NCBI GenBank assembly: GCA_947632195.1 | Contig: CANROE010000013.1 | Span: 1 to 51,549, forward strand | Direction of reading: 5' to 3' | DNA: 51,549 nucleotides | DNA from: an uncultured Clostridia bacterium | GTDB taxonomy: Bacteria; Bacillota; Clostridia; Christensenellales; Borkfalkiaceae | Part shown: piece by piece, positions 3,811 to 47,719 of the stretch | How positions within the stretch are numbered: the first letter of the stretch is position 1 | Layout of the letters: every line of letters starts with the position of its first letter | The notes under the pieces: generated by a model | Seen by the model: the letters and a program-made list of their open reading frames with translations, nothing else | Told to the model about the DNA's origin: nothing | Database searches by the model: none | Made by a program: the position numbers and the translations under genes

Positions 3811-4670
3811 ATGAGACTTGATGAATGGAATTTGTACAACCACGGTTGGCTTCCGCGTTGTGCACCGCATGAGACCCCCGATCTTACCTCTTTTGACCCG
3901 TCAAAATTGTTTGCGAGTAGGAGGGGGGGGTGCTTATTCGCTATACGACAGACTATGACCAATGCAAAACGCAGAATTGGTGGTATGTCGTAAAGGACGA
4001 TCCCTACGATATCTCAAAATTGAAAGCCAAACACAGATGGGTGGTAAAGCAAGGCGAAAAAAATTTCGAAGTAAAGAGGATCGATCCGAAATGCTTTTGC
4101 GAAGATATATTTCGTGTCGCCGTTGCCGCCTTTTCAGCTTACCCTGCAAAATACAGACCGAATTTGCAAAAGGAACAATTTTATAAAGACATTGAAGCTT
4201 GGAACGATTGCATGGTTTACGGCGCATATTTTCGTGAAACGGGAACGCTTGCAGGATATTGCATATTAAAAGACGAGGGGAGTTATATTTCGTTTCCTGT
4301 ACAAAAAACCGATCCCGAATATGAAAAGTACCAAGTCAATGCGGCGCTGGTATACTATGTTCTGCGTAAACTCGAACCTGCTTTAGCGCAGGGCAAATAT
4401 ATTTGTGACGGCGAGAGAAATATTTTACATGAGACTTCTTTTTCCGAATATCTGATCAAATATTTCGGATTCAGAAAGGCTTTTTGTACACTGCATTTGA
4501 TCCTTTCGCCAAAGATCAAATTTATCGTTGGGAGCTTGTTTCCCTTACGCAAAATGTTTTATAAGTTGGACGGGAACAAGTATATCCATTTGATGAATGG
4601 GATATTTCACATGAAAGAGATCATTCAAAGGCAAAATCGTGAAAAAACGAGAGGAACTCAATCGCTATAA
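3811..4670 (+). CDS. FemAB/GNAT-like polysaccharide-cluster protein, out of frame at a G8 tract
   Basis: Two frames meet at a run of eight G at 3923-3930. The first starts at ATG 3811 and gives about 40 residues ending FASRRGG; left alone it runs to a stop at 3993. The second, read from 3930, gives LIRYTTDYD, NWWYVVKDDPYDISKLKAK, VAVAAFSAYPAKYRP and KYICDGERN, and ends at 4670. The joined protein would be about 286 residues. I recall this architecture from polysaccharide-cluster proteins with a FemAB- or GNAT-like acyltransferase fold; substrate is unknown. One added G (G9), or two removed (G6), restores a single frame through GGVLIRYTT. The gene looks phase-OFF as written. A sequencing error is possible. 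A caveat is that AGGAGG at 3919-3924 sits five bases before a GTG at 3930, so a shorter 246-residue form could be made in any phase. Confidence 0.7.
3923..3930 (+). repeat. G8 homopolymer tract inside a coding region
   Basis: Eight consecutive G, followed by TGCTT. It lies exactly where the reading frame of the FemAB-like gene changes. Such intragenic tracts are classic slipped-strand contingency loci. The same G-run plus TGCT arrangement occurs in two promoters of this window. Confidence 0.8.
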
Positions 4671-4703
4671 CAAAAGGAATTTATGTACTATTGCCGAGGG
4701 ACA

Positions 4704-5549: not shown

Positions 5550-5572
5550 CGAAGAAGGGGTGACTAAGGAAT

Positions 5573-8120: not shown

Positions 8121-8130
8121 AACCGCAAAG

Positions 8131-9120: not shown

Positions 9121-9121
9121 A

Positions 9122-11950: not shown

Positions 11951-11953
11951 AAA

Positions 11954-13862: not shown

Positions 13863-13871
13863 CGGCGGGGC

Positions 13872-13945: not shown

Positions 13946-15664
13946 ATGGCAAGAAAAAGTAAATATCAAACTTCCGATACAGCCTCTGGACGCTCCGCGC
14001 GCCCTTTTTCCGCAGGGCTGTATATTCGTCTGTCCCGCGAGGACGGCGACAAGCCCGAGAGCGAGAGCGTCTCCTCCCAGCGGGCGATTTTAGATCGGTT
14101 CGTCTCCGAGCATCCCGACATTCTGCCCTATGACAGCTACATCGACGACGGTTGGAGCGGAACGGATTTCGACCGCCCCGATTTCCGCCGTATGCTCGAG
14201 GACATCCGCGCCAAAAAGGTCAACTGCGTCATCGTCAAAGACCTCTCCCGTTTCGGCAGAAATTACGTCGAGGCGGGGAAGTATCTCGAGATCGTCTTTC
14301 CGCTCTTCGGCATCCGCTTTATTTCGGTGAACGACAACATCGACAGCTTGGAAAACCCTTCCTCGATGAACACCGTCATGGTGCCCTTTAAGAATATCAT
14401 GAACGACGAATATTGCCGCGACATCTCGATGAAGGTGCGCTCCTCCCTCGACGTCAGGCGCAAGCAGGGCATGTTCATCGGCTCGTTTGCAGCTTACGGC
14501 TATCAAAAGGACCCCGCCGACCGCCACAAACTTCTTGTTGACGAGGAAGCCGCGGAGACGGTGCGCCTCATCTTTGAAAAGTTTCTCGAAGGGTACAGTA
14601 TGCTCGGCATTGCCCGCATGTTGAACGGGAGGGGGGTGCCCAACCCCTCAGCATATAAGCGGAGCAAGGGGCTCAATTACCGCCACCCGCAGACGGACGA
14701 AAAGGCGCTTTGGGTCGATTCCTCTGTGCGGCGCATCCTTACCAATGAAGTGTACATCGGCAACCTCGTGCAGAAGAAGAACGAGATCATCAGCTACAAA
14801 GTCCACACGGCGAAGGCGGTCGCGCGGAGCGGCTGGATCGTTGCGGAGGGCACGCACGAGCCCATTGTCTCTATTGAGGACTTCCGACGCGTGCAGGAAC
14901 TCTTAAAGCGAGACACGCGCACCTCGCCGAAAAGCCACAAACTTTCCGTGTTCGCGGGCTTTGTGAAGTGCGCCGACTGCGGTAGAGCGATGCAACGGCG
15001 TAAGGTGGTGCAGCCCTATAAAACTTACGAGTATTACGCCTGCGCGACCTACCGCAAGATGCACGCGGGGTGCACGAAGCACATGATCCGCGCCGACGTG
15101 CTCGAGGAGGCGGTGCTCGTCTTTCTGAATAAATATATCTCCCTTGCGGCGGACTTCGACAGGCTCATTTCTCTGCTCGGCCAAAAGAAGGGGACGGACG
15201 GGTCGCGGCGGATAGAGGCGAGTATTACCGCAAAGAAACGGGAGCGGCAGGAGGCGGAGAATATGCTTGTCGAGCTCTACCCCGACCTCAAAAAGGGGTT
15301 GCTCGGGCAGGAGCAGTATCTCGCCCTCAAGGAGCGGTACGAGAGGCAGATCGAGCGGGCGGACACGGCGATCGCGCGGCTCGAGGAGGAGAGAGAGAAC
15401 TTTGAAAAGCCGATGGGGGAGAACGAGTTTGTCGTCGCCTTCCGCAAATACCGTGCGCCCGAGACGCTCACGCGGGAAATGCTGACCGAGCTCGTGGAGG
15501 ACATTCTCATTCACGAGGGTGGGGAGGTCGAGATCCGCATGAAGTGCCGCGACGAATTTTTCTCGGCGATGGAGTACCTCAAGCACAACGAGGGACTTTT
15601 TAGCGAGGGGCTCTTAAAAGAAACTCTCGCCGCAGACGGCAAACCGACTTCGGAATCTGCTTAG
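13946..15664 (+). CDS. Large serine recombinase
   Basis: A 572-residue site-specific DNA recombinase. The N-terminal resolvase domain shows YIRLSRED with the catalytic Ser30, YIDDGWSGTDFDRPDF and VIVKDLSRFGRNY. A recombinase domain follows, then a zinc ribbon (CADCG, then CATYRKMHAGC, about residues 337-373), a coiled coil rich in Glu/Arg (about 415-490) and a C-terminal part (TREMLTELVEDILIHEGG) resembling DUF4368. Such enzymes integrate and excise elements such as Tn4451-type transposons, and the SpoIVCA recombinase of the B. subtilis skin element is a relative. The start at 13946 has GGAAGGAG upstream. No cargo genes lie beside it, apart from the small DUF6870-like gene. It is GC-richer than the polysaccharide genes. 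Confidence 0.93.
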   Translation: MARKSKYQTSDTASGRSARPFSAGLYIRLSREDGDKPESESVSSQRAILDRFVSEHPDILPYDSYIDDGWSGTDFDRPDFRRMLEDIRAKKVNCVIVKDLSRFGRNYVEAGKYLEIVFPLFGIRFISVNDNIDSLENPSSMNTVMVPFKNIMNDEYCRDISMKVRSSLDVRRKQGMFIGSFAAYGYQKDPADRHKLLVDEEAAETVRLIFEKFLEGYSMLGIARMLNGRGVPNPSAYKRSKGLNYRHPQTDEKALWVDSSVRRILTNEVYIGNLVQKKNEIISYKVHTAKAVARSGWIVAEGTHEPIVSIEDFRRVQELLKRDTRTSPKSHKLSVFAGFVKCADCGRAMQRRKVVQPYKTYEYYACATYRKMHAGCTKHMIRADVLEEAVLVFLNKYISLAADFDRLISLLGQKKGTDGSRRIEASITAKKRERQEAENMLVELYPDLKKGLLGQEQYLALKERYERQIERADTAIARLEEERENFEKPMGENEFVVAFRKYRAPETLTREMLTELVEDILIHEGGEVEIRMKCRDEFFSAMEYLKHNEGLFSEGLLKETLAADGKPTSESA

Positions 15665-15683: not shown

Positions 15684-15726
15684 GCGTGCGTGCGGGCGAC
15701 CTTGCCCCGCACGCACGCATTTTTTT
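15684..15726 (+). terminator. Rho-independent terminator of the recombinase gene
   Basis: Hairpin with arms GCGTGCGTGCGGG (15684-15696) and CCCGCACGCACGC (15706-15718), followed by seven T. It isolates the recombinase from the ABC operon downstream. Confidence 0.9.
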
Positions 15727-15835: not shown

Positions 15836-15865
15836 TTGACAGGGGGGGGGTGCTTGTAGTAAAAT
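15836..15865 (+). promoter_or_regulatory. Promoter of the ABC/Big_2 operon with a G9 tract in the spacer
   Basis: TTGACA at 15836-15841 and TAAAAT at 15860-15865 are 18 bp apart, and half of the spacer is nine consecutive G. The 110 bases between the recombinase terminator and this promoter hold no gene and contain A tracts that could act as an UP element. Changing the G run by one would set the spacer to 17 or 19 bp and so change promoter strength. Confidence 0.78.
15842..15850 (+). repeat. G9 homopolymer tract between -35 and -10
   Basis: Nine G followed by TGCTT. The run begins directly after the -35 hexamer. The layout is the same as at 26305-26317. Confidence 0.85.
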
Positions 15866-15887
15866 AGTCTTAACGGTGGAAATGTCT

Positions 15888-15923
15888 CCGCTCCCGCGGG
15901 GAGCGGCGCCCCAAAATTTGGGG
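15888..15923 (+). promoter_or_regulatory. Two adjacent hairpins in the leader of the ABC operon
   Basis: CCGCTCC/GGAGCGG with a five-base loop (15888-15906) and CCCCAAA/TTTGGGG (15909-15923). They lie in the untranslated leader between the G9 promoter and the ATPase start. There is only a three-T run after the second hairpin, so a terminator role is doubtful; RNA stability or attenuation is possible. Confidence 0.4.
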
Positions 15924-15968
15924 TTTCGAAAAAATCCATAGAAACACCACAGAGGAGGAAATCTAAAA

Positions 15969-16793
15969 TTGGAGAATATGAAAGGTGAGGCAGAGATGAA
16001 AGAACAAACTCAGAACGAAAAGGAAGAGACGGTTGCGGCGGCTCCCGAAGACAGTGCGAAAAAGGCGTATATGCTGGAAGTGACCGACTTTTCCAAAAAA
16101 TACCGCAACAACAAAAATTACGCCGTGCAACACTTTAGCTTTACCGTCTCCGCGGGAGAGGTCGTCGGGCTCGTGGGAAGCAACGGCGCAGGCAAGTCCA
16201 CGATCATCAAGAGCGTCATCGGCGTGCTTCCCTTCGAAGAGGGGACGATCAAGGTCGGCGGCTTTGACGTTGCAAAGCAGTCGGAGAGCGCAAAAAAACT
16301 CGTGGGGTACGTTCCCGACGATCACTCCGTCTATGAAAAACTGACGGGCAGAGAATATATCAACTATATCGGCAGTCTGTACGGGGCGACCAAAGAGCAG
16401 AAGAAGTACGTGACGGACGAACTTGCAAAGAAGTTCGAACTTTCGCACGCGCTCGACGTGCAGATCGCGGGCTACTCCCACGGAATGCGGCAGAAGATCT
16501 GTATTTTGGGCGCGCTCGTGCATCAGCCAAAACTTTGGATCCTCGATGAGCCCATGGTGGGCCTTGACCACCAGACGATGACGCTTCTGTGCAAGTTCAT
16601 CGGCGACTATGCGGACGGCGAACACTCCGTGCTCTTCTCTTCGCACAATCTCGAGGTCGTCAGAAAGACGTGCGATAAGGTCGTCTTTATCCGCGAAGGG
16701 CAACTTGCGAATATCGTGGACCTTACAGAGGACAGGGATTTCGATCTCGACAAATATTATATGGAGTTGAACGAGGTCGAACAAGATGCGTGA
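15969..16793 (+). CDS. ABC transporter ATP-binding protein
   Basis: A 274-residue ABC ATPase. Walker A is GSNGAGKS (70-77), the signature is YSHGMRQ (about 169-175), Walker B is LWILDEP (189-195), and the H-loop is SSHNLE with His226. The first 33 residues are an acidic, low-complexity extension. I give the TTG at 15969, ten bases after AGAGGAGG; ATG codons at 15978 and 15996 are alternatives and would shorten only this extension. It overlaps the permease gene by eight bases. The pair looks like an ABC-2-type exporter. The substrate is unknown; the third gene in the operon is a giant extracytoplasmic protein. Confidence 0.93.
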   Translation: MENMKGEAEMKEQTQNEKEETVAAAPEDSAKKAYMLEVTDFSKKYRNNKNYAVQHFSFTVSAGEVVGLVGSNGAGKSTIIKSVIGVLPFEEGTIKVGGFDVAKQSESAKKLVGYVPDDHSVYEKLTGREYINYIGSLYGATKEQKKYVTDELAKKFELSHALDVQIAGYSHGMRQKICILGALVHQPKLWILDEPMVGLDHQTMTLLCKFIGDYADGEHSVLFSSHNLEVVRKTCDKVVFIREGQLANIVDLTEDRDFDLDKYYMELNEVEQDA

Positions 16794-18390
16794 GTTTATC
16801 CGTTTACAGCTCAAATTGAGATGGGGCTACAACCGAAACAATAACAAGGCGAGTGCGGTCATGACCGCGGTCGCCACTCTGCTTGCCGTCGCCATCGCTC
16901 TGGCGCTCGTGTGGGCGCTCTCCTATGTATTACAGGCGAGTATCGGGGCCACCGCCAAACAGCTTGCACAACTCTATCTTACGGTCATCATGATCGGGCT
17001 GACGATCGCGGCGACGGGAATGCAGGTAAAGCGGCTCTATCGCCCTGCCGACCTTCTCATCACGGCGCGCTTCCCGATGAGCCCGTTCAAGCTGTTTTTG
17101 AGCTATCTCGTCTTGAATTACATCGACCTGAGCATTTATTCGGCGATCCTGCTCTTCCCCGTGATGATCGTGTTCGGGATCGCAATGAAGTGCTTTACGT
17201 TCGTCTACTTTTTGGGGATCGTGCTCGGCGTGCTCCTCATGCCGATCGTTCCCTTTGTGCTGTCCATCTTCATCGCCATTCCCACGGTGTATGTGACGAC
17301 CCTTCTCGAACGTCACGGGATCGCGCGGCTCATTGTGTTCGTCGTTGTCCTTGTCGGCGCGTTCGTGCTTTACTACTACATTCTGGAAAATTTGGCGGAG
17401 TTCTTCATCCATCGGAATTGGGAAGAGGGGACGCTCGAAATTTGGGAAAATTTGCTCAAGGGGCTCGACGGCTACTATAATCCCGCCTACTATCTCGGGA
17501 ACGTCGTCTTTTTCGATGGGTTCTGGATCGGGTTCGGCGCGCTCTTGGGCGCGGGCGCAGTCTTGGGTGCGGGCGGCGTTGCGCTGGCGCGCGCGGTGTG
17601 CACGAGTTTCCGCAAGAAGGCGCTCGAAACGGGGTCGGGCTTCTATATGCGGCGCTCCGAAGTGGACAGCTTCGGAAGTGCGCGCGCGATCTTCCGTTAC
17701 AGTCTGAGGGAGATCCTCCGCACAAAGACGTATGCTTATTTCTATCTCGGCGTGGCGATCTCCACGCCCGTCATGGTATTCTTCTGCAATCGGCTCGTGA
17801 CGATGGTCGGCGAGGCGCAGGTCGGCTCGGGGATCAACTTCGGCGCGTCCATGCTGGTAATCGCCGTCTTTATGGCGATGATCAGTTCGTTCGCGGCGAC
17901 CATTTTGAGCGTCGAGGGCAAGAAGTTTTACATCACCAAACTCGTTCCCGTTCCTTACCGCAAACAGCTTCTCATCAAGGGGATCTTGAACGTGGGAGTG
18001 AGCGCGGTCGCCCTTATCATTAGCGCGATCGTGCTTGCGGCCTTAAAGTTCATCGGCGCAGTGGAGATGACGGTGCTCATCATCACCCAACTTCTCCTCG
18101 CCGCGGGGCTCGTGTTCAACGGGATCAACCTCAACCTCGTCAACCCCAATTTAAAGCCCAAGGCGAACGGCGAGGCGGAGGAGATCAACATTACCTACAT
18201 GCTCCTCATCGGTTTGGTCATTGCCGCGATCGTCGGGGCGTGTTGCATCATCTTCCCGCGGTCGATCGAGACGGTGGGCGCAACTGCCGCATATCTCACG
18301 GCTGTCGGGATCGCGCTCGTCTATGCGGCCGTCAACTTTATCGTGTTCTGGTTCACGGTAGATAAGAAATACAAAAAAATCGAGGCTTAA
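16786..18390 (+). CDS. ABC transporter permease
   Basis: A 534-residue integral membrane protein with roughly 12 hydrophobic segments in two halves, separated by a cytoplasmic part around residues 285-300 (FYMRRSEVDSFGSARAIFRY). The layout and the overlap with the ATPase gene identify it as the membrane subunit of an exporter-type ABC transporter. The N-terminal residues MREFIRLQLKLRWG are a cytoplasmic amphipathic start typical of such permeases. No substrate-binding protein gene is present, which fits export better than import. The 2480-residue protein gene starts 14 bases after its stop. Confidence 0.88.
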   Translation: MREFIRLQLKLRWGYNRNNNKASAVMTAVATLLAVAIALALVWALSYVLQASIGATAKQLAQLYLTVIMIGLTIAATGMQVKRLYRPADLLITARFPMSPFKLFLSYLVLNYIDLSIYSAILLFPVMIVFGIAMKCFTFVYFLGIVLGVLLMPIVPFVLSIFIAIPTVYVTTLLERHGIARLIVFVVVLVGAFVLYYYILENLAEFFIHRNWEEGTLEIWENLLKGLDGYYNPAYYLGNVVFFDGFWIGFGALLGAGAVLGAGGVALARAVCTSFRKKALETGSGFYMRRSEVDSFGSARAIFRYSLREILRTKTYAYFYLGVAISTPVMVFFCNRLVTMVGEAQVGSGINFGASMLVIAVFMAMISSFAATILSVEGKKFYITKLVPVPYRKQLLIKGILNVGVSAVALIISAIVLAALKFIGAVEMTVLIITQLLLAAGLVFNGINLNLVNPNLKPKANGEAEEINITYMLLIGLVIAAIVGACCIIFPRSIETVGATAAYLTAVGIALVYAAVNFIVFWFTVDKKYKKIEA

Positions 18391-18404: not shown

Positions 18405-21400
18405 ATGAAAAAACTGATGACGTCAACCATCATTCTGTTGCCGCTTCTGATCCTTGCGATCATGCTCGTAAGCGGCGCGATTATGAGTTTGATCACGCAT
18501 ATCTATGTGGAAAAGGTGGAGTTCGTCGAAAACGGCGCGCTTGTGCTCGTCATGGACGACGAATCCGCCCCGCCGACCAATTTGCTGGAGGTCAACGTTC
18601 TGCCCTTAGAGGCGGAAAACCGCGACCTTGTCTACACGGTGGAGGACGAATCGATCGCCACCGTCGATGAGAACGGCGTTGTGACCGCGCAGTACTACGG
18701 CGAAACATACATCACGGTGACGAGCGTCGAGAACAAGGCGGCCGTGGATAAGCGCCGCGTGCTCGTGACCGATACCTCCGTGCACAGAGTTGAGCTGAAC
18801 GGGGGATACAAGAGCGACCTTTATGAGGGCGGCCTCGAAGAGCGCACGCAGACTCTCTCCGTCACCGTCTATCCCAAGGAGGCGGAGAACAAGGCGATCG
18901 AGTGGAAGAGCTCGAACGAGGACATCCTTCACGTCAGCGCGAACGGAACGGTGACGCTGAGGGGAGCGGGCAAGGCGACCGTCACGGCGACCTCCGTCGA
19001 CAATCCCGACGCTTTTGCTTCGGTTGAGATCACCTGCCATAAGAGGATCGAGAGCATCGAGATCACGCGCAGGCGGGTATTTACCGCGCTTGCCGAGGCG
19101 CAGTTCCCCGAAGTGACGAAGAACCCCGCCGACGCGGACGTGACCATCGCCTACACGTCGAGCGACTCCTCCGTCGCCAAAGTGGATAAGACGGGCAAGA
19201 TCACCTTCTTAAAACCGGGGCAGGTAACCATTACGGCGACCGCGACCGATTTCGGCGGAAAGACCGCGGAGGTTTCGAACGATTACGTCTCCACCCTCGG
19301 CTATTACCGCGCGCCGCTTTTCGATACCAAGCAATTCACCGTCGATTACGACGAATACAAAAACGCGGACAAAGCGCTTCCCATTCCCTTTGCGGCCAAC
19401 CTTGCGGATACTTATCGGGAAGTGAAGGAAGTGACCTACAGCACGAACGGCGTTTTGACATTCGACAAGGACAAAGAGGAGTTCCGCTTTATCGGCGAAA
19501 TGCCCGCGGGCGTGAAAACGGTTACGGCAACCGTCACGGCGACGGGGTACGACACGACGACGAACGAACTCGTCAGTCTCGTCGACGCATTCACCCTTAC
19601 CGTCCTGCGCCACGCACAGAGCGTCACCGTCGCCTATAAGGGAACGGGCGACGCAAATTCCATCATTCTCTCGGGGAATTCGCTCGCTTTCGGCACCGAA
19701 AACGCCGCGGCGGCAGTCACAGTGTCTCCCGCAAACCACACCGACACGGTGACGTACACCCTTGAGGATACGGAGAACATCGCAACGCTCTTCGGCAGTA
19801 CGATCATCTTCCAGAAGGCGGGTACGGTCACGATGAAGATCGCCTGCCTCGATGAAAAGAAGGTCGAAACGGTGAGCAAGACCATTACGGTGCGATATGC
19901 GCCCGTTGCCAAGGAAGAACACGAAAAGGGAGTTGAGATCACCGAACCTCAGCCCGGGAAAGAGCCCGAAAAGCAACAAGTCAGCCTCTCGATGGACGAG
20001 AAGCACAAAGAGGAGGCGGTGATCTACTTCACCGAACCCGCGGGAACGACCGTTACCTATGAAGTGACCGAAGGCAAAAACGAAGTCATCGAACTCGAAG
20101 AAGAGAACGGCGTCCGGCACATCGTGCCCAAGCAGGGCGGCTTTGCAACGGTGGAGATCACAGTCACCAAGACGGCCGCGCCCGCAGGAATTGCGTTCTT
20201 TGCGGCGCGCGCAGGCGAAGAGACGACCGTCTACACCATCGAAGTCTATGTCGATAAACCCGTTACGGCGGACAGCTTTACGGTGGAATTCGGCGACAAA
20301 CTCTGCACGAATGTCTTTGACACCACGCTTGAAACGGTTCCTTTCACCGTGAAGGCGGAAGGCCCCAACGGCGAACTCGAGGGCAAACTGCTTTATGTCT
20401 CCTCCGACACGACGAGCGACGTAGCAAAAGACGATGGGTTGCTTCAATTCTCGGGGAGCGTCGCGTTCGGCAAGAACCTTTCCTCGCTTACCGTCACCTT
20501 CGGCGTAAAATACAGCGACAGGGCGCTTTCCCTCGGCGCGTCGGGCGGGCTTGCCTTTGTCACACGCACCCTCAAGCGCAACGCGGACAGCATCGTGGTT
20601 TCCTATAACGGAACGACGGTCAGCACGGCCGCTTCGGGCACCTTCAACACAACGAGCCAAACGCTTACCTTCACAACGGACGCAGAGCCCGCGGCAAGCA
20701 GGGTGAATGTCAAGATCGAGCCCGCAACTTACACCGAGCGCATTCACTACTCTCTGGGCGACGGCGATGACGGCAACGCAACGCTTACGGGTGGCGTGCT
20801 TACCTTCAAGAAGAATGAGGCGTGCAGCGTCACGGTAAAGATCGAACTGAGAGGTTCGGACGGTTCCGCCACGCTTTCCACTCAGATCACCATTCACTAC
20901 ACCCCGCGCACAAGCGAGGAGAAGGTCGTCAAACTTCCCACGGACAGCGGCGCCCACATTGTCCTTCTTCTGCGCGACGGCTTAACGGACAAGGCGAAGA
21001 TCGAATTCAACGCGCCCGCGAACACCAAAGTCACTTACGATATTTCGGACGACGAAGTGCTTCAACTCGTTGAGGACAACAACGAGCAGACGATCGTGCC
21101 GAAGAAGGGCGGTTTTGCGACGGTGACAGTCAACGTCACACCCGAAAAAGATTCGGACGAGGAAGAGGCAACCTACACCATCAACGTCTATGTGGACCGT
21201 GCGGTGACGACGGACGACTTCGAAATCACCCTCAACAACGAACCCTCCGCCCCGAACACCGTTTTTGGCACCACGCTCGGCGAAGTTCCTTTCACGGTCA
21301 CCTTAAATTGTGATGACGGCGCGATGGAGGGCAAGCGGCTCTATGTAAAATACGGCGCGGCGACCGCAACTGCCGAAAAGGGCGCAACAACTTTCGAGGG

Positions 21401-24400
21401 CAAGATCGCATTTGCAGAGACGCTCTCCGATCTCAACGTCACTTTCGGCGTGGAATACACCGACGACACCGAGGACTATAAACCTGCCGAAGGGCTTGCG
21501 GAGGTCATCCGTCGGCTCGAGCGCAACGCAAGCAGCATTACCGTCCAATACAAGGGTGTTGAAGCCGACAAGATCGTGTTCGGAAGCAACTCCAACGCCT
21601 CGCGCGGCAATTCTATCACCTTGGGAGAGGGGAACGCCGACATCGTTGTCACGGTTTCTCCCGCGGCGCACACCGACGTGCTCTCTTACTCTCTCGAGGG
21701 CAACACGGGCAACATCGCAACGCTTGGCACAAACGGCACGCTTACTTTCACCAAGGCGGGCACGGTTACGGTCGTCTTGCAGGTCAAGCGGGAGGATGAG
21801 GTCACGCTCCAAAAGAAATTCACGGTCACTTACGAGCCTGTTGGTTCGAACGTGGCGGTGACGCTCGGCGAAGGCGTGCAAAACGAACAATATATCGCGC
21901 TCGACTTCAAGGGTACGGGCAACAAACCTCAAGAGGCCGTGCTCTACTTCACCGCGCCCGCGGGAAAGACAGTAGATTATAAGGTAAAGAACAACGCCGA
22001 ATCCATCGTCAGCCTCCAAGAAAACAACGGCGTATATCACATCGTTCCCAAGAAGGGCGGTTTTGCGGTGGTGGAGGTCGCCTTAGACGGCCAAACGGCT
22101 TACACCGTCAACGTCTATGTCGACAAGCCCGTCAAGGCCGAAGATTTCACCTTCAAATTCAACGGCAATGTATATGGACTCAACCAAATCTTCACCACGA
22201 GCCTTACGACCGTACCTTGGTCCGTTGCGGTCGAAGATAAAGATGGCTCCATGGCAGGCAAGCAACTCGTCATCAAGATCACGGGCAACGACACGGTGAC
22301 GGTGCCCGCAGATAAACACGAAACAGACAACCAAACGGCGACCTTCACGCAAGATACTCTTACCTTCACCATTGGCGCGCAGTACGCGACCGCGGCGCAC
22401 CAATACGGCAAGACGAATGACGGTACCGTTTTGCTCGGTCAAACCACCCGCAAGGCACAAACAACAAGAGGCGATCTCAGCACGGCTCCCACAGTAAAAT
22501 ATAACGACGGCACAGAGAAAACCCTCGCCGCAAATCAAGAAAACAGCCTTTTGTTCGACGACATCGGTAAAGAGATCGTGTTTACGGTGGATAAAAACTT
22601 TGACCCGTCCGATTTTGTGTTGACAAAGAAACTCGTTTTGCTCGAAGGTCATGGCTATGTACAAGTTACAATTTCGGACGACGGCGCAACGATCGCGCTC
22701 AAGGCGTCAAAGTGCGTTGAGGAACATGAACTTAAGCTCTCGATCAAAAATATCACCTACACGCTCAAAGTAACGATTGAGGCCAAGGCGCAGACGCTCA
22801 CGGTGAAGTATGGCGAAGAAGTCCTTCAAAGTGGGCAAACTTACAAAACCCTGCTCGATTCGCTTACCTTCTCCGTCACGCTCGGTCGCAGTGACGGGCA
22901 AGACATTACCAACAAAAATTTGGAGTGGAGTTTTGACGAAAACACTTGGCACGATGTGAACAACGACAGCACCACAACCGATGTCGAGGTGGACGGCATT
23001 CCAAGCGATGTGGGTCGCATCATCTTCCGCTCCAAAGACGGAGGCGCAGAATTTGTCCTCAATCTGAAACATGCCGCTCTCCAAGATTACGCGTTGGAGT
23101 TCACGGTCAACAATAACAATGATACGAGTAAACTCGCCATGGTAGAATCGGCCAAGGATGCGCAAGAGACGATAAAATGCGTTCTTCCGTCGGGCGTAAG
23201 CGTGGTGACGGTCCAGGTCACGATCGCCGAAGTGGCAACATATCTCGGCGGCCTCGGCACCAATGAGCAGTTTGCAGCGCTCCTTCCCGTTAGCCTCAAT
23301 GGCCTCAATGGTTGGGAAGCCGAACACAATGCGCTTTTGCACCAAATCGTTGTCACTTTGCCCTCGACGGATAATATCAACCGAGATATCCGAATCGGCA
23401 AGGGAGGCGAAGGGGCGGCTCCTCAAATTACCGTCAACTTCTCCCGTATCCAGCTTGCTTTCCTCGAATTCACGGGCTTTGACAGCACAAACGCCGTCGA
23501 TGTGTACAAGGGCTATCAACAGGTGCGCGTGTTCGCCAAAAAGAGTTATTATAAGGAGGCGGATGGAGACGTCGACTACTTCCTCATGCCCGTTGAGGCG
23601 TACAAAACGGTGAATAAAGAAACGCGCGTTAGCCTTTCCGACCTCTCTTGGACGCTTACAAAGCATGACGGCAAAACGGGCAAAACGAACGTCGTCACGA
23701 CCCAGGTCGGCAACACGGTGTATTATAACAATGCAACTTATACCATCACCGCGGCCAACGGCGGTTATGAACTGCGCGATTCGCAAGGGCAAACCATTGT
23801 CGGTACCGACGGCAAGTATACGGCAGGAGTTACCCACGTCACTTGGGTCGATACCTTCTCCGAATCGGAAAGCGGTTACGCCCGCATCTACTTCGGCGGT
23901 TTTACGGGGCTTTCGGAGACCGATGTCCAAAACGACTATTTCGGCAACTTCGGCGACGAAGAGAGTTGGAACAAATCTACCGAAGCCGCATACAGCGTCG
24001 AGGGTAAAAAGGTTGAACCTTCCGAGGGCGCGTTCTCCTTCCTCAGTGTCGAAGGCGGCGATCCCGCAGTCGGCGGCTTAAAACACCACTTTAATTTCAA
24101 CGTGCTTGCCGATGAAAGCCTTGTCAACGTTTTCAATGCAACGGGATATTACGCGAAGAACAAAATCGTATTGCACAACGATTTGTATGGCGGCAAGAAC
24201 ACGGCGGTCACAGTGGCGAAGGGTACGAGAGCCGACCCGGATGCCGATTGCAATAAGGATGAACTGAACGGTGAATTATATAAGGCCGCCAAAGCCAAAG
24301 ATTTGGTTTTGGATAAAGCCTTGAACAACAACAATACAAATGATACATCCTATGCATGTAAAAATACCATTTACGGCAACGGGTATCAAATCAACCTCAA

Positions 24401-25847
24401 TGCGCTGAACACCATGATCATCAATAGCGATAGTATCATGAACAACAACGGCGTGGCGGAAAATTCGGGGCATCATTCGCAGTTCATCAACATCTACAAC
24501 GTGAATTTGAAAGGGCGCAACGATACGAATAAAGTGATCGCTACGAGTATGGGCGTTTACTTCGGCATTCACAACGCCTACTACTCCACAATTCAAAATT
24601 ACGGCAAGTTGTTCGATGGAAGTCTCCATGCCAAAAATACCGTGTTCCGGAATGCGGCCATGGCGGGCATTGAGTTGTGGAATGATAGAAATAAGACGTT
24701 AGCGGAAAGCCCCGCATGTGTCGACTATCTTGAAAATGTCACGATCGTCAACGCAAAGAGAGCCATCATTTTGGAAAATCATGGCGGCCATACCTTGAAT
24801 ATCAGAGGCTATCTCGATGCGTTGAATTACAACTCGTTCAATGAGCTTAAAGGTTTAGCCACGGGAGATCTGATAAATGATGCCATGGTACTCCAAATTC
24901 TTTTCGGCTCCATGGCATTCAATCAACAAAGTATCGATAAGTACATGGAATGGTTTGGAAGTAGTTACTCCGTCTCTCTAAGTAAGGGCAACATGGATGG
25001 AGCAAGCAATTTCTTTGTGAACCCGATGATCATTGATACCTCCCAAGATGAAGGAAAAACGAAAATTGTTAGTGAAGTAGGAAAGTCCAAGTGGGGTGCG
25101 AAAGGTGCCGGTTGGTTTTATGTTGGTCAAGATGGAAATATCGTTAAAACACAAAAGGCCGGGGAGTCAATACCAAATTCAGAAAACGTATGGCAATGGA
25201 AAGAATCCCCTGTAAATGTAGGAGGTGTAGGCGGTGTCATCAAGATTTGGGATGAAAGCCAGCATCAGTATCTCGATAGAAAGACCGATCCGGGAAAATC
25301 GAATTTCGCAACTCCGTTGTCCGGTTTGGATCATGTAGACCCGCGATTCAATGATGACGCTACCTTGACAAAATATCAAAGCCAAGTTGGGTCAGCCGGA
25401 TTTGGTAATACTTTGATAACAGGCTACACCTTTAACACGCCCAATACCGTCGACGGTGGGCAATGCACGGTTAGTAGCTTTAACGCTTTCGGATTCAACG
25501 CAGAGGTCACCCGTCCCGACTTGGGGAAACTCTTGTATGCCAAACGCGATATCCGACTTCTCTGCGAATATCTCGATATCGAAGCGGACGGAACGCCTAT
25601 TCTGAATACCGACCATATTCTTTGGCATATGCAAAAAGCCTACCGCGACCTTTCTTTGGTGAATAGAGAACCCGACCATGAGAAGGCGCTCAGAGAATCG
25701 TTGAAGGCGGCAGCACAAAGGAACGATTGGGACGGCGCTTGGCCCGACGGCACGACGCTCGACCAAGCGATTGCGGCCAGCCCCGAAGCCGCCGCTCTCA
25801 GCGAAATGCTCTCCGAAACCGTCCTTCCCGACAAATACGCCTACTAA
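18405..25847 (+). CDS. 2480-residue membrane-anchored Big_2/repeat surface protein
   Basis: The N-terminus (residues 8-32) is an uncleaved-looking membrane segment (LLPLLILAIMLVSGAIMSL), after which the protein should be outside. Residues 33-300 carry about three bacterial Ig-like Big_2 domains (for example IATVDENGVVTAQYYGETYITVTS and VTLRGAGKATVTATSVDN). Three repeats of about 310 residues follow, starting near 402, 724 and 1038; each has an SVTVAYKG-like strand, a VSPANHTDTVTYTLED-like segment, IVPKQGGFATVEI and YVDKPVTADSFT. The C-terminal third includes a segment with spaced strands (IYGNGYQINLN, FRNAAMAGIELWND, VTIVNAKRAIILENH; about 1985-2160), likely a beta-helix. There is no LPXTG motif or C-terminal anchor. 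It is in one operon with an ABC exporter, so a role linked to that transporter is likely, though the role itself is unknown. Confidence 0.85.
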   Translation: MKKLMTSTIILLPLLILAIMLVSGAIMSLITHIYVEKVEFVENGALVLVMDDESAPPTNLLEVNVLPLEAENRDLVYTVEDESIATVDENGVVTAQYYGETYITVTSVENKAAVDKRRVLVTDTSVHRVELNGGYKSDLYEGGLEERTQTLSVTVYPKEAENKAIEWKSSNEDILHVSANGTVTLRGAGKATVTATSVDNPDAFASVEITCHKRIESIEITRRRVFTALAEAQFPEVTKNPADADVTIAYTSSDSSVAKVDKTGKITFLKPGQVTITATATDFGGKTAEVSNDYVSTLGYYRAPLFDTKQFTVDYDEYKNADKALPIPFAANLADTYREVKEVTYSTNGVLTFDKDKEEFRFIGEMPAGVKTVTATVTATGYDTTTNELVSLVDAFTLTVLRHAQSVTVAYKGTGDANSIILSGNSLAFGTENAAAAVTVSPANHTDTVTYTLEDTENIATLFGSTIIFQKAGTVTMKIACLDEKKVETVSKTITVRYAPVAKEEHEKGVEITEPQPGKEPEKQQVSLSMDEKHKEEAVIYFTEPAGTTVTYEVTEGKNEVIELEEENGVRHIVPKQGGFATVEITVTKTAAPAGIAFFAARAGEETTVYTIEVYVDKPVTADSFTVEFGDKLCTNVFDTTLETVPFTVKAEGPNGELEGKLLYVSSDTTSDVAKDDGLLQFSGSVAFGKNLSSLTVTFGVKYSDRALSLGASGGLAFVTRTLKRNADSIVVSYNGTTVSTAASGTFNTTSQTLTFTTDAEPAASRVNVKIEPATYTERIHYSLGDGDDGNATLTGGVLTFKKNEACSVTVKIELRGSDGSATLSTQITIHYTPRTSEEKVVKLPTDSGAHIVLLLRDGLTDKAKIEFNAPANTKVTYDISDDEVLQLVEDNNEQTIVPKKGGFATVTVNVTPEKDSDEEEATYTINVYVDRAVTTDDFEITLNNEPSAPNTVFGTTLGEVPFTVTLNCDDGAMEGKRLYVKYGAATATAEKGATTFEGKIAFAETLSDLNVTFGVEYTDDTEDYKPAEGLAEVIRRLERNASSITVQYKGVEADKIVFGSNSNASRGNSITLGEGNADIVVTVSPAAHTDVLSYSLEGNTGNIATLGTNGTLTFTKAGTVTVVLQVKREDEVTLQKKFTVTYEPVGSNVAVTLGEGVQNEQYIALDFKGTGNKPQEAVLYFTAPAGKTVDYKVKNNAESIVSLQENNGVYHIVPKKGGFAVVEVALDGQTAYTVNVYVDKPVKAEDFTFKFNGNVYGLNQIFTTSLTTVPWSVAVEDKDGSMAGKQLVIKITGNDTVTVPADKHETDNQTATFTQDTLTFTIGAQYATAAHQYGKTNDGTVLLGQTTRKAQTTRGDLSTAPTVKYNDGTEKTLAANQENSLLFDDIGKEIVFTVDKNFDPSDFVLTKKLVLLEGHGYVQVTISDDGATIALKASKCVEEHELKLSIKNITYTLKVTIEAKAQTLTVKYGEEVLQSGQTYKTLLDSLTFSVTLGRSDGQDITNKNLEWSFDENTWHDVNNDSTTTDVEVDGIPSDVGRIIFRSKDGGAEFVLNLKHAALQDYALEFTVNNNNDTSKLAMVESAKDAQETIKCVLPSGVSVVTVQVTIAEVATYLGGLGTNEQFAALLPVSLNGLNGWEAEHNALLHQIVVTLPSTDNINRDIRIGKGGEGAAPQITVNFSRIQLAFLEFTGFDSTNAVDVYKGYQQVRVFAKKSYYKEADGDVDYFLMPVEAYKTVNKETRVSLSDLSWTLTKHDGKTGKTNVVTTQVGNTVYYNNATYTITAANGGYELRDSQGQTIVGTDGKYTAGVTHVTWVDTFSESESGYARIYFGGFTGLSETDVQNDYFGNFGDEESWNKSTEAAYSVEGKKVEPSEGAFSFLSVEGGDPAVGGLKHHFNFNVLADESLVNVFNATGYYAKNKIVLHNDLYGGKNTAVTVAKGTRADPDADCNKDELNGELYKAAKAKDLVLDKALNNNNTNDTSYACKNTIYGNGYQINLNALNTMIINSDSIMNNNGVAENSGHHSQFINIYNVNLKGRNDTNKVIATSMGVYFGIHNAYYSTIQNYGKLFDGSLHAKNTVFRNAAMAGIELWNDRNKTLAESPACVDYLENVTIVNAKRAIILENHGGHTLNIRGYLDALNYNSFNELKGLATGDLINDAMVLQILFGSMAFNQQSIDKYMEWFGSSYSVSLSKGNMDGASNFFVNPMIIDTSQDEGKTKIVSEVGKSKWGAKGAGWFYVGQDGNIVKTQKAGESIPNSENVWQWKESPVNVGGVGGVIKIWDESQHQYLDRKTDPGKSNFATPLSGLDHVDPRFNDDATLTKYQSQVGSAGFGNTLITGYTFNTPNTVDGGQCTVSSFNAFGFNAEVTRPDLGKLLYAKRDIRLLCEYLDIEADGTPILNTDHILWHMQKAYRDLSLVNREPDHEKALRESLKAAAQRNDWDGAWPDGTTLDQAIAASPEAAALSEMLSETVLPDKYAY

Positions 25848-26294: not shown

Positions 26295-26326
26295 TTGACA
26301 GACAGGGGGGGGGGGGGTGCTATAAT
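26295..26326 (+). promoter_or_regulatory. Promoter of the giant MBG gene with a G13 tract in the spacer
   Basis: Perfect TTGACA at 26295-26300 and perfect TATAAT at 26321-26326 with a 20-bp spacer, 13 bp of which are G. A/T-rich sequence precedes the -35. With both hexamers at consensus but a spacer 3 bp longer than optimal, this allele should be weak. Loss of three G would restore 17 bp. Confidence 0.85.
26305..26317 (+). repeat. G13 homopolymer tract between -35 and -10
   Basis: Thirteen consecutive G followed by TGCTATAAT. It is by far the longest G run in the window. Exact length is likely to be polymorphic and hard to assemble. Confidence 0.88.
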
Positions 26327-47500: not shown

Positions 47501-47719
47501 TTTGAATTGAGAACGGGATCGGAGGGCATCTCCTTCACGCGGGACGGAAACTATGTCGTCTTTGAAGCGGACGGACTTTCGTCTTATGTGTTCACAAGCG
47601 TCTATGTGCCGTATATCCCCGTCATCATCATTTTGGTGGTAGTGCTGTTTGTGGATGTACTTGGCATGGTCGCCTTGGTGGTCGTCTATAAGAAACGTAA
47701 AAACTCAACGGAGGAATAA
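26510..47719 (+). CDS. Giant (7069-residue) MBG-domain surface protein with C-terminal membrane anchor
   Basis: A 21.2-kb uninterrupted gene. Residues 1-35 form a signal peptide (KGKKFIVGLFTLAMAASVAV). Residues about 60-665 hold two beta-helix-like segments, each opening with ADHNNHxGW and containing a CLNGxTxT...DCQGxG motif. Then come several dozen MBG-type domains (about 80 residues; signatures YDGT/YNG, DAGTYTVT, NY.L..., YTI.KA.L). They are interrupted by beta-helix/ATCTQxG modules at about 1713-2303 and 2937-3393, and by two related non-MBG modules at about 5107-5383 and 6077-6347. Two tandem near-identical domains lie at about 6765-6910. The end has a globular part (about 6915-7025) and a membrane helix (IPVIIILVVVLFVDVLGM) with a basic tail. 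No LPXTG motif is seen. It is most likely a very long adhesin-like stalk; ligand unknown. Its promoter holds the G13 tract. Confidence 0.9.
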   Translation: MLKGKKFIVGLFTLAMAASVAVGVGVGTSALLGAEKLTGGSTASSQVTPPSASDNIVPLTSADHNNHSGWTSLTSTQETTTGSKVQYRFDLSGLLGSYYVTSAEASKTSHVTSGSIQKEVILCLNGQTLTFSGSLTVEAGGSLTICDCQGAGKLDGTVVVQNGAKLTLESGVNVSTVKLSDSTSTLNIKGNSSQTNVELSGSAELTLANGVNVKQVTMIGASSQLTLSDSATLDTLDLRNGASFTLANGKVSNVNMNKSNLTIAKEITLESLSSPDSDKDSTVTVEKNVTIKAGNSNNIGTVEVLSNNSTLSLGASVKGGTVKLLGKEAKLSLNNGTVTTLELHKDASYTVNESTKVGTVDMYDDAVLTIGDPNNRTPSYEGEKITLNVSLKYSKDGESKIICGKLKEGTKIDLQPTNGLRPWFNIDEDSFTTNNAGYDYWDFFTVDGMPMTAPTAADHNNHVGWGDVLEGLNASGDVMPSDSFSGECCFKQDEVDGNFHDGIEVLSPAEDDSITGDAEFCLNGKTFTLTSDLYIGGSLVISDCQGRGTITSDSGCSIIVDGGSLEIAGGTIEVPIVVEDGTLVISGNPTINESIQLNTDGTANSECMIRCGVIDPNIKIDVDSSAGSWPYVDEAYLYANNPDLGVEEFWEIFSLGGDFMPAQAEVTWPDKWEGTYNGYDQSDEINIKVQNLKGEEISDSTVTFTPLESASSSEFKDAGTYTVTAEVSDSRYRVAEEAEGEERTYTIKPVELKENVFFPYLHEDEEGNHWYTDTYDGSDRLSEIAEGITLTLKNEDDEFPTLNTDYTVAVDGVSNGELKNTGTYTVSVVIEENSNGTYNYIFGTFKNFEDLDGQITSNTQEYIIEKASVMINDDDVKASDKVYDGTLDATSCVGDIDFSSQLFTGDGVSVSCKATVSGDANVGDNKNVTIVYTIVGDDEYNNYQFVVDSVVSNHTATFTKQISITPAPVKVDWGTTSLTLANDLFATIKKGIKVTPTTTVSGKTTLTADTDYTVTAAKGSESNTTQIVSVGTYTFTVTLTNTNFKLDNSVTGRKSDTEAKQDFEVTRKTLSGSVAITWTGTGNKTYNGSVQTFPKATIKDVFGKDLTLDVKVTKYNGTEEERDFKNAGTYTFTAKLSVADEANYSLGDDTGPKTHEVTIDPAPVTVTVTIDAKEYDGTADVSKELVHVETDGIIVADQSAVHVEVANGTLTCDGKDVGSHNVNGIKLQIVGDEHGNYVIKDADTDGTKTVSSTINITQASLTLNWDSDDYTYTGETLPHPTASADGRTQNSESLTVEVAIEPGKTFMDVGEYTFTATVSGVTSGNYDVKNPSMVYHIKQATLKVTFDPLDSTEYDGEDWIKRIKDAVRVESPTVKPVPASDYKITITKDGTDVSNTTSKNARTYHVTVTLADEVNYVAWTEPETHDYTITSTSLSVPSLAQSKTYNGGGQAADLPTITGVNGETLTFGTDYTLSYEVKDAGKLNTDGKPKDVGTYNVLIALTGDAANNYTVSQNIGTFTITQATVTVSDITVRKVYDGTTDIDASTVIFNTSGIIAEDQSAVKVEAKSATTDQVNVGENLEVSVTFEIIGDDAGNYKFAEPHLDDDHKTTITTSTLLIQSVSVEPVWWANWNDASKHYYTNGKDFLSGLKKQIKVTKESGGDLDAGDYEITVTKGSESVSEIVDAGTYRFTITLKTNNYRFGSTAESVSQDFVLEDAVARVTVGEEVTGYGSIEDAWAAATVESEATVTLMQTTLMKMEPLTVGTGDNITFDLNGKTLTGSITVSAGSLTLQGTGTLEGGVTVKGGSFTMSGGTITNTAGSGVRVESGTFTMKSGLITGCKATSASKDDEAGRGGGVYITGSGNFTMEGGEISGNEATRGGGVYKAGSGTFTMSSGTIKDNTATAVFDGGGTGGGVEVGKGTFEMTGGEISGNNKADEGAGVYVENDGVFTMSSGTITGNTASGSGNGVYVTEKGEFTMSGGSIKDNKAVSPDVYINGRVEGDGYFKWSGGDIGVVHLGSGAYIDVLSPASKPTYPIAIEVESITDDGVKVLAWTEGDAAATIHSYFKSKDDKACYYIKAAENAAYIGKHSLVKNGDPVWVGYTSVTFNVKCEHEGCNENASATLSGTRIEKGDTVAATCTQAGSQKYTATVTLKDFEEFSADYATLSGGSITSTSPNTETLDPQGHDWEYSADGATITATCKNDAHDVEKDGCEKKYSVTLNAPKSADGGNAVYNAKEQPATVGGATIETFPGGYSITYKYNKDSADNYVDMGDAPKNAGYYKATLTANDHPETSVSVEFQIEKASLTVTANAHSITYGQPEAEWENSGVTFGAFCTPDTQAVVHGEPEFEYSYNLYDDVSGAYTITPKGGSLYADNYKFDFRPGTLTVNQAELVIKWSEPGALVFGELEGKAYSVTLEVIYNHDEVNAVLTYTGNSYDGMFKSGTSMPTQAGENYTVTVSIAGGKSGNYKLTGEIAKTFNIAKKNVETPTFAHAKYDGTVKTVDLGSGALYRLSDGGTGTNAGEYNVVLELTDANNYKWADVAAVPGGESTITLENAFVIDKATLTVTFIELDSTTYDGNDWVARIKGVTVVSDTAAKPAEGDGGDYIITIQKDGVGNLYPSGVSKDAGTYTVTVALTLEGQKNFEFVGSNKTTVEHTYTISKATNGWRGGEGHEVTLADWTYDGGTKEHKPTADSLFGQAEFTYSTTNEKEGEYVAKQPVDAGTYWVKATVTGTTNYDGLEAVYAQFTISKAKANLTITPPDATYDGEKHEAEITITVDGAPGLVIIEDYTVTYQKDGEDAEPIDAGDYTVTVALTEKAAKNYDLVGVASVSFTIEAAVVTVKWWDDHPRYTTLRGNFLPELREQIIVTKDGTPLEEDLDYTITVTKDGDEVGEIGKAGDYLFTVTLGSNYQFAGGETTAEKTFTLYEAVAWVTPWHYTESGPTDDTTTGYGSFEDAWEEAQRARRATVTLIAKNVECNHATVEAGEEISLNLNSNTLKGDILVNGGEFTLEPWKSWANDGGHMYGSINVAGGTFNMKGGDIEGSVTVNEGTFNMEDGGITEGGVIVNGGTFKMPDGTIYDNVTVNNGSFQWGGGTIRGKVILSRSTYIEVLDMPKRPAYTPIEIAVTLDDEPQKVLQWYHAEGDLFEDRWFTSADENACCYFGDGIGEWIVYIGKHSLRSYGDPEWAADFTSVTFDNIQCEHCERTATATLTGERIVKGAATAATCTQYGTQAYTATVQVSDLTDPGSWITFDEEHDKIVEDISATTTDENAYAPTGHVWEYTAEGATLTATCNGHHDPNVDGDKEFAIILEASTTTYNGEEHLATVGGDTKKEPFDGEYTLSYKCNKESADNYAPMDGTAPKNAGYYKAILTANGHPEAQATLDFEIKKAPITLQTPASVPFNGGKQTAKELATLTGVNGERLTLDTDYTVSYKKGGAETEPINAGEYTVTVTLNSTALAGNYTLVNNSVTYTISKIAVTATWKEGANVLTEETDLTYDGETHTVTLTLTADGGYSTPLPLTGESAYKDAKTYTFKAEDKSGNYTESEWTLMITVKQATLTVTGATAAPKTYNGEVDDPVIDFTLTGYKGPDATTVKVASWAAKYARPDVGDNITITVSDVTLTGEASENYTVSLGTFAEIGGKINTAKLKVTLTPAGKKYDGTDAATVTGTFDADSGLIEGDVVSAKVTAYFENFNAGENRAITIDSVVLEGAKAGNYEAVYEGSDLSAKIEQREIHITWENVESLVYNGEDQTPTPKLPDELPEIDKNSEALNVSAEVKGEHANAGTQYTATAVLGGTSKENYTIIDTCKEQEYTIKQAKITIGGTYSDTISYNGSVYRKIITVPTEGLTQKSSADISTDAQVTITTSGKDHGVYKNDDGSLKVSISVSLTDSTNFAYAFEASVTITIEQKEIELPTPAAVTYSGVVQHAKELATLTTGVSGETLTLNRDYTVSYVGNVKTNTTPQNADTYTVTVTLNDTSLANNYRLKSGTVTYIINKAEIVFDTSKVSLTTSKVYDGNSSVTGVETAGNSITIDTGVNSETVKGSYTAVYRDKNVDAEKDITIVLTLQGADNYVFGTGTYTVNENGSITWTVSGAITAKELKLNPEAVTVKKVYDGKGTVADGQINCPDEALVEVVKDDDVTISAKSAVFTGADFSVGKNKNVQITVNLDGTDAGNYTISVQTLGVGEITKAQLSIKNLNNYRYNGKDHFEKAKEDIKSKVTNSSGTTVLPTLDDLTITVEDETEVRDAKTYSITVELSEDDYKNFAFDKDSQTAKVSVTVEKGNVTKITWAVSEPAEGALADDHYNAVYDGKVHTVTATLTLDGSETIEAVLTKNTFKDAKSSYTITINDTENYTVSASNAIFTATISQKTITLTTPEAVTYSSEVQNAKELATLTGVNGETLTLGRDYTVSYKKGEETDPINAGEYTVTVRLNETSLANNYTLASSTVTYIINRADLTITWNGPDNVTYGEAKWPEPSANFQGEDGKTTKIVVTEKAGKTFKNADSYTFQAELKDGAADNYNITEESREHAYTITPASLKASLSAEVVYGDEFTKDCVRVSVNADDLMYEDSKEAIEARILDFIKAAIGGSGSGFTTTYTTEMHVGDPATVSYSGSWESGNYTVTFAEGAVKVLKRNIKLTLDAGNSNTYGDASHHATVSAARSGGEGHWFGHVEDEEKLLENLVFTFTKEDSRGQEYYPRMQVGVYTVSADWKEGSDLANDYKIVRTVTATYTVNRAALTVTLSATVEYGEETPEVTVRHVSGLVSGDGQSVLDEAKEKAAFDFDGYDVGTEVGNYKMTAEQTEITNYTVTFESVEGNFTVTPRKIKVTLTFEERTYGQDPSGWVNAVASRKGGGTWYVGSSDDISILELAYTLEETGEMPTNKTDANTYTVIPQCNNANYDVEFADASGGKTFRYTVNKATIEAAITWNDADDHEYDGKEHHPSATVEGANGPLALEIEQKYEGAGDGSKFKDVGNYTFTASLDTKDTKNYVWKMGADLEKHAEITKHTVKASDVMWEDEENERFTYAGSTLSDPTAEFEGCGNDGIISLVVSPNDGKEAFKNAGKYAFKAELNETTAINYALETATKNYTIRQAEMKDTFGVGDHMPKDNTHVYNSEMENVPLCLPEPTAKDFPVEGKDEAWEEGSLTIFYIITTHPEGKHDEAEIKKNLDILETGGLFDEGKPWKAYDPDDPEMNVTAPMGYCVYFKIVEKDGNGNHKTHYGYFSVHIAHEELTITLKDNSEGLLPETLEYGDVVLTETTLEKGLETAIESVMSLENGKEVDRTKDFEGNFAHFTFYLRTKDKINEGIRYTIFEDGVYRGTEKDTDNFVQHLPVGTYYLFVSYRAEGDTRYIVFKWAGDNRPQFTVTARKISVDVTFTNTTYGNDPTGWVTYGTPTRDSKPDDTWYAKGEAESDTDLHTLLLRETVGGSAFVPKKKTAANTYTVTAECQNNNYAVTFKYNGGNSYTIEKATISVEWTDTEGGVFGSAVKQPKASATGVEGDVLTFQAEIDETSPTKAPFKNAGTYIFRATIVGGLAGNYKLMNDTVTVIITKKPVKAPTIQSKEYNGGPQTADVDVAGKDFKVKKNAGGTDFGSYEVVLGLNDSENFMWESTNKSDDLTLEFHITTTKNYLEEALTLSGWEYDGTAHGAAAKARFGEVTFIYSRTKDGNELGNTAPKDVGTYYVKAYVEADDKNNYNAFTSAPVEFKISPKPIDVTWTVGTYEYSGVEQTRPTAKASTGLKADSADFTLSVIMTAHPDWGEDDAFIVAGGYTFRADFRPGDRTRAENFTLTKETIEQFAEIAQKGLTITANAHSIPYGDPLSDNGVTCEGFVSSEGVGNLENALTFRSDNYVQYESGVGDHYTITPQGYTSHNYDITFKSGQLTVTPREIAVDWTTKASYTYQGKDLAMPEASATGVNGDKFTLDVEIDKESPMQGAFRNAGDYLFAAKFKSGAANAENYTLTGAKKDIHVERAAATAKWGTEIFIYRGSMFDESEYPTATFDGIGEDGKEIELRVFISEYPATADGTFRNAGKYTFTAEFQNNFDKNYEFDGVQSHDYTVEQAEMVEKFGEEGRMSKMKDDVFFRIEMEAVPLKLPEPTDGKFPITGVGEDTSWAGADLKIYYIVTVHDENRHDPAAIRALLDKLKQEKLEPGMVWLEYSAAEERLNVRDAKGYCVYFKIVESDGKGNYKTYYDYFSVHIAQEQLKIRLTDEAREGFMEPVEYGDVAHTQSALQSSIAGGIAKITDNVGADRTAEFKSELEKFIFYFRKDTEDGQYFYVDDEGIKDNNDKTVANLPLGTYYLFIIYNRDAGGAPERIIFDWERGRPHFEVVTRKVKITLSFAEHTYGEAPDPWWEETARTRNGKAGNWYAPGEEDVELEYSVVLQGANGTFTPSAATNAGTYRVVTDDRSNANYEVTFINAAGGELAYTVEKASVGKPAEDGTVFTYTGFEQTYTVEENPDFYTVSGTHRTNANEAGHDVIIALKDPVNYKWEGGDSEDLIYKFIIRKATLTVTAKDKTVTYGDGPSNDGVTCSGLVNGETWEDVVRGTLAFAYGGYEPFMDVGEYAIMPSGLSAENYNFSYVAGRLTVVPKEISVEWEEKSYTYTGSVFTDPTATAEGVGEDGTFTLKVSPAFTGEFKNAGDYVFKAELDSLNAKSKNYTLKESTTTRTYTVEKREVTAPTIPSKVYSGTRQTADVEASTLYTVTENNGGTNVGSYNVELTLTDSANYKWADSEDAELTLTFTITKADYDMSGVTFEDVTVTYDAKEHSITVTGTLPNGVTVTYEGNGQKAVGEYTVKANFKGDEQNYNPIPSMIATLKIVTVSHDLGNVRFEDVTVKYDGNAHSITVTGTLPTGVTVTYEGNGQTDPDIYTVTAVFSDPDGVIFDRMTATLTILRTHVQKELDDGSGVEVALDSEKGFDPTLELVVEKAESVERSYLIWIKDKVSEKYDVKMCKDGVEAPIDGKVTVRLLIPEEFRDRDFELRTGSEGISFTRDGNYVVFEADGLSSYVFTSVYVPYIPVIIILVVVLFVDVLGMVALVVVYKKRKNSTEE

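Follow-up and report, generated by a model that had tools for sequence, protein, structure and literature searches.

Phase variation through slippage at repeats has mostly been described in host-adapted pathogens, and the contig analysed here raised the question of whether three long G runs in an uncultured Clostridia bacterium are switches of the same kind and whether they belong to one system. The window (the whole stretch of DNA analysed, 51,549 nucleotides) is the complete contig C13 of a source genome of 1.78 Mb in 48 contigs. Exactly three runs of eight or more Gs were found on its plus strand, namely G8 (3923-3930), G9 (15842-15850) and G13 (26305-26317), each directly followed by TGCT, which confirmed the preliminary description; a C run of seven or more was not found in the window. 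Over the whole genome, 22 runs of eight or more Gs were counted on both strands, of which three are in promoter spacers (G9, G13 and one at C5:101268), one is coding (G8) and 18 are in other contexts, nine of these 18 coming, as judged by eye, after a C run in a hairpin-like intergenic repeat. Given 22 runs in 1.78 Mb, three on the window contig are only mildly unusual (Poisson P 0.027). Two runs of eight or more Gs within exact TTGACA/TATAAT spacers, compared with about 0.016 expected, are non-random (P 1.3e-4).

The G9 tract directly follows a -35 box TTGACA (15836-15841, plus strand) and is succeeded by a -10 box TAAAAT (15860-15865), so that the layout is TTGACA-G9-TGCTTGTAG-TAAAAT with a spacer of 18 bp. 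Three plus-strand genes follow, encoding an ABC transporter ATPase (15969-16793), a permease-like membrane protein (16786-18390) with a weak ABC_tran_2 match under the Pfam cut-off, and a 2480-aa protein with bacterial Ig-like (Big_2) domains (18405-25847), respectively. In the nearest relative (L271) the promoter of this operon has G11 instead of G9 and a spacer of 20 bp, with 34 of 40 upstream bases identical. Five more orthologues of the ABC operon with a recognisable promoter carry G7, G8, G9, G9 and G9 with spacers from 17 to 19 bp, and 47 of the 66 ABC-gene loci, some of them truncated by contig ends, are without a G or C run of seven or more near the gene start. At one related locus (L265, near position 6-76), G runs of up to 34 were assembled together with a G7C7G16 pattern, and the G34 stretch is probably an assembly artefact.

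The surroundings of the G9 promoter were also inspected. A large serine recombinase is encoded just 5' of it (13946-15664), the nearest NCBIfam models being CcrB and XisF, all under the cut-off. The single inverted repeat of 11 or more bases that was detected (15684-15718) is a hairpin in the interval that separates the recombinase gene from the G9 promoter. No inverted repeat of this size flanks the G9 or the G13 promoter, by which an invertible promoter was ruled out for both. In the leader after the G9 promoter (15868-15968) two G+C-rich hairpins were predicted (z -2.0); no Rfam family matched this leader, and at the gathering threshold a tRNA at the contig end was the sole Rfam match in the window.

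The G13 tract is likewise located in a promoter spacer on the plus strand, between TTGACA (26295-26300) and TATAAT (26321-26326), with the layout TTGACA-GACA-G13-TGC-TATAAT and a spacer of 20 bp. The gene behind it (26510-47719, plus strand) encodes a protein of 7069 aa that has a signal-peptide-like start and contains YDG and MBG repeats; its C-terminal part, as read by eye, has a hydrophobic stretch followed by a basic tail. No close orthologue of this giant protein was found in the genus, and the weak matches in only six of the 102 other genomes ruled it out as a conserved switched gene. On the minus strand of the same contig (49817-51407), spoIIAA-spoIIAB-sigF-like genes were observed, of which spoIIAB scored above its cut-off; they would fit a spore-forming bacterium or a descendant of one.

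The G8 tract is of another kind, being placed at a frame junction within a gene on the plus strand. The 5' frame (3811-3993) crosses the tract and ends at a stop codon (3991-3993), and the homologous protein continues in the other frame, that of 246 aa at 3930-4670; the gene is out of frame in this assembly. The only orthologues found when the remaining 102 genomes of the genus were searched, those in G087 and G092, both have nine Gs and an open frame, so that the tract near the 5' end disrupts the frame in the window and leaves it intact in the relatives. The identical out-of-frame protein was found on at least four contigs, and among the matches listed there was no in-frame form from the same species. 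A 68% homologue (P0005) has an N-terminus which, up to the GG of the tract, resembles by eye the other frame of the usual start; to judge from this likeness, P0005 is perhaps an out-of-frame form from another species. Homologues of the 246-aa frame are mostly 236-296 aa long, and 4 of 23 show a weak acetyltransferase (GNAT) signal; no Pfam family was found for the 246-aa frame or for P0004, and no credible solved structural relative was found for the gene product. The surrounding cluster encodes an aminotransferase, a sugar transferase, glycosyltransferases, a LicD protein and a cytidylyltransferase, together with O-antigen-ligase-like and Polysacc_synt proteins. The genes behind all three tracts are, as the preliminary description had proposed, surface or polysaccharide genes, and the tracts are placed where slippage would alter expression, in two promoter spacers and one coding frame.

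To follow the promoter type beyond the window, genomes were searched with the pattern TTGACA-N(0-10)-G7-N(1-13)-TATAAT (seven or more Gs), and the reversed pattern was used as the control. Perfect TTGACA and TATAAT are demanded by this pattern, so that all counts are lower bounds, and the G9 promoter of the window itself is not matched. The pattern was found at 208 sites in 73 of the 103 genomes of the genus (30 genomes were without a match); in the family, 134 of the 398 genomes had it, representing 11 of its 18 genera. When the order was sampled evenly, 50 of 297 genomes matched, made up of 11 of 23 from the family of the window (with the source genome counted), 32 of 63 from three other families and 7 of 211 from the rest. 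Genomes drawn evenly from across the phylum, 397 others in all, gave eight matches with one site apiece, and one of these eight sites has a signal-peptide-like first gene. The reversed pattern gave no match in any genome of the genus, family, order and phylum searches. A homopolymer between the -35 and -10 boxes is accordingly present at G9, at G13 and at the 208 sites of the genus, and the promoter type occurs throughout the genus and in several families of the order. A random distribution of the G runs with respect to promoters, which would have spoken against the preliminary description by its own criterion, was not found, with 3 of the 22 runs of the source genome in promoter spacers and 73 of 103 genomes of the genus matched, most of the 22 nevertheless lying off promoters.

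Tracts of seven or more Cs occur as well (14 sites in 11 of the 103 genomes of the genus, for example L117 and L118, with none for the reversed control), yet G on the coding strand is clearly preferred (208 vs 14 sites). The most frequent tract has nine Gs (102 of 182). Behind the tracts the recurrent feature is a T (149 of 182); TGCT follows only 12 of the 182 promoter tracts, which disposed of the earlier suggestion that it is a motif of common origin or one promoting slippage. The third promoter tract of the source genome, at G000:C5:101268-101276 (L034:7269-7277), reads TTGACA..G6AG9..TATAAT and precedes two very short signal-peptide-like frames close to the contig end, perhaps decayed surface genes. 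An extreme case is G060, where 19 poly-G promoters (L399-L417) with conserved upstream DNA were found, 18 with G8 and one with G7; 16 of them have a readable gene, all large and lipoprotein-like, and 15 of the products begin with MNTKKWL. By sequence, this set has the form of an amplified paralogue family with one poly-G promoter per member. Among named relatives, the nearest are MAGs of 'uncultured Clostridia bacterium' that carry the label Lapin, which suggests the rabbit gut.

The first genes behind the promoters were compared with those behind control promoters. For the genus, 112 sites were used and a frame was called at 110; of the 67 controls, 39 came from G004 and G005 and 28 were the sites listed first for other genomes, at least nine of them from other families of the order. 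Signal peptides and start codons were called with our own crude script, applied identically to tract and control sites. The first gene was signal-peptide-like at 87 of 110 sites in the genus, 18 of 28 across the remaining genera of the family and 26 of 38 across the other families sampled from the order, compared with 6 of 67 controls, and it was lipobox-like at 68 of 110, 14 of 28, 15 of 38 and 2 of 67, respectively, a bias over the controls that points to surface structures as the controlled genes. ABC transporters and pilin-like proteins, named by eye, recur among the first genes. The class is located mainly before predicted lipoproteins, other secreted proteins and ABC transporters.

The spacing of the two boxes was then compared. 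Ordinary promoters were taken from two genomes of the genus, G004 (100 of 106 sites typed) and G005 (22 of 82), five with G6 or more were set aside and 117 without G5 or more remained, and the poly-G set of the genus consisted of 121 of the 208 sites, corresponding to 112 distinct strings. A 17-bp spacer was found in 102 of the 117 ordinary promoters and in 9 of the 112 poly-G strings, whose spacers range from 13 to 27 bp. In a second comparison, including 30 family and 40 order sites that are part of those counted, it was found in 59 of 67 control loci and in 16 of 182 poly-G promoters from the genus, other genera and other families. Within 15-19 bp, 16 of 149 sites have 17 bp (P 0.002 against a flat distribution, the sites being partly non-independent); this count is under those for 15, 16, 18 and 19 bp, and in all three taxon sets it is lower than its neighbours at 16 and 18 bp. 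An extended -10 (TGn) was rejected as a hallmark of the class, as no enrichment was found (35 of 112 compared with 30 of 117 controls). Good hexamers at poor spacing would be expected if spacing changes faster than hexamers decay, as by slippage, and the dip at 17 bp hints at default-off states.

Tract lengths were then compared between relatives, all of them being assembly consensus values from one genome per species. Nine pairs of promoters share at least 90% identity on each flank; tract length differs in four of them and is equal in five. Two of the four differing pairs share L051, and in one of the five equal pairs an extra base adjoins the tract. Differences in tract length were also seen in two pairs of paralogous promoters of one genome each (L175/L176 and L389/L390). 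The length variation put forward in the preliminary description was thus found between relatives for G9 (G11 in L271) and for G8 (nine Gs in G087 and G092), and promoters otherwise alike differ in 4 of 9 pairs, while G13 is left with no relative for comparison because the giant protein lacks a close orthologue in the genus. The tracts are not wildly variable, 18 of the 19 promoters of G060 having G8 and five of the nine flank-conserved pairs being equal. In Helicobacter and Mycoplasma, repeat slippage goes together with lost mismatch repair. A MutS family match was obtained in the source genome (E 3.2e-291) and in 285 of the 297 genomes sampled from the order (above the cut-off in 267); because MutS is present, the poly-G tracts are not simply due to lost mismatch repair, and MutS loss was discarded as the cause of slippage.

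Slippage-driven phase variation of surface genes, by promoters of the PorA/Opc type at G9 and G13 and by a coding switch at G8, is regarded as the likely explanation of these sequences. G9 and G13 would be slippage-prone poly-G tracts in promoter spacers, at which replication slips would add or remove Gs, shift the distance from -35 to -10 and thereby shift promoter strength, affecting the ABC/Ig operon and the giant surface protein, respectively; slippage at G8 would put the gene of the polysaccharide cluster in or out of frame, the latter being its state in the present assembly. The observed position of the tracts, their enrichment in the lineage, the spacing off 17 bp, the gene bias and some length differences between orthologues or paralogues are joined by this explanation to the further expectation that tract length varies within the population, reversibly, and alters transcription. 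The predominance of G9, the constancy of G8 in G060 and the preference for G on the coding strand could instead indicate a fixed element, such as a regulator binding site or a structural spacer, whose length does not switch. This is unlikely, though worth keeping in mind, since the position of the tract is not constant (it starts 0 to 10 bases downstream of the -35 box and ends 0 to 12 bases short of the -10 box, within bounds set by the search pattern), a bound regulator leaves near-perfect hexamers at non-17-bp spacing unexplained, and flank-conserved orthologues differ in length, as does the coding tract.

Two further explanations are far less probable. The runs might be accidental, left over from repeats or wrongly assembled, no more than by-products of G-rich repeats between genes, as would suit the nine of 18 other runs behind a C run in hairpin-like repeats and the implausible G34 stretch in at least one related locus; given the absence of the reversed pattern from 103 and 398 genomes, the strong bias of the downstream genes, the conserved flanks and the coding tract kept in frame by relatives, this is quite improbable. 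The least probable is the proposal with which the analysis began, that the three linked tracts with their common TGCT form one dedicated switching network of the locus. G8, G9 and G13 are indeed on one contig and on the same strand, with TGCT after each, but two kinds of switch are involved (promoter spacer and coding frame), TGCT is rare behind the promoter tracts of the class, the third promoter tract is on a different contig, the class is spread across the genus, and no coupling of the three was found, so that the linked network was given up.

Beyond the phase variation of single surface genes, a more specific model of default-off promoters may be put forward tentatively, at slightly less than even chance. 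Several families of uncultured gut Clostridia possessing MutS would keep a poly-G repertoire that is off by default, from which rare slips activate single surface lipoproteins; with near-perfect -35 and -10 boxes kept apart by 15-16 or 18-19 bp, most cells would express little. In G060, where most of the 19 promoters have a readable paralogous lipoprotein gene behind them, the set would then serve antigenic or phage-receptor variation. A switching repertoire shared by the whole lineage would mean that a genome sequence of such a gut Clostridia member captures a single surface state out of many, which would matter for recognition by phages and antibodies and for the tracking of strains.

A literature search (titles and abstract openings, with few subscription papers, and hence weak evidence of absence) gave no description of poly-G promoter spacers in Clostridia and no paper on phase variation in Christensenellales. 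In the accessible portion of a 2025 review of phase variation, Clostridia are represented by Clostridioides difficile only, the tenor is that repeat-slippage phase variation occurs mostly in host-adapted pathogens, and multi-locus repertoires are linked with pathogens, perhaps through database bias (PMC11868660). The invertible promoters of C. difficile resemble the present case in being promoter-level phase variation in Clostridia, and differ in that they act by DNA inversion (PMC11868660), the G9 and G13 promoters having no flanking inverted repeat of 11 or more bases. In Streptococcus pyogenes Spy1336/R28, also of the Firmicutes, a variable homopolymer is in the control region of a surface protein, but it is one T tract, thought to act on the spacing between regulator sites (PMC7098570). 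The vlhA genes of Mycoplasma gallisepticum are, like those of G060, many paralogous lipoprotein genes with a promoter repeat each; their repeat is GAA and is upstream of the promoter, whereas the poly-G tract is inside the spacer (PMC6258824). For G8, the pilus switch of Bifidobacterium breve is comparable, a coding G tract there splitting a surface gene of a gut commensal, although B. breve belongs to the Actinobacteria, the genes encode sortase pili and slippage was detected by deep sequencing, while here a gene of a polysaccharide cluster is concerned and assemblies were compared (PMC9187656).

The closest likeness is to porA, opc and fetA of Neisseria, surface protein genes in which a homopolymer separates -35 from -10 and is believed, through its length, to affect how the sigma factor binds (PMC2791445). 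Length-dependent expression was demonstrated in Neisseria, as that source reports from other work, and is proposed here on the sequence. Neisseria is a Gram-negative pathogen with few such promoters, whereas here they are many, are spread through entire families of gut Clostridia, frequently with several in one genome, and precede mostly lipoproteins. The principle of the switch is therefore known, from porA, opc and fetA and, for G8, from the bifidobacterial pilus; what appears to be new is the lineage and the scale.
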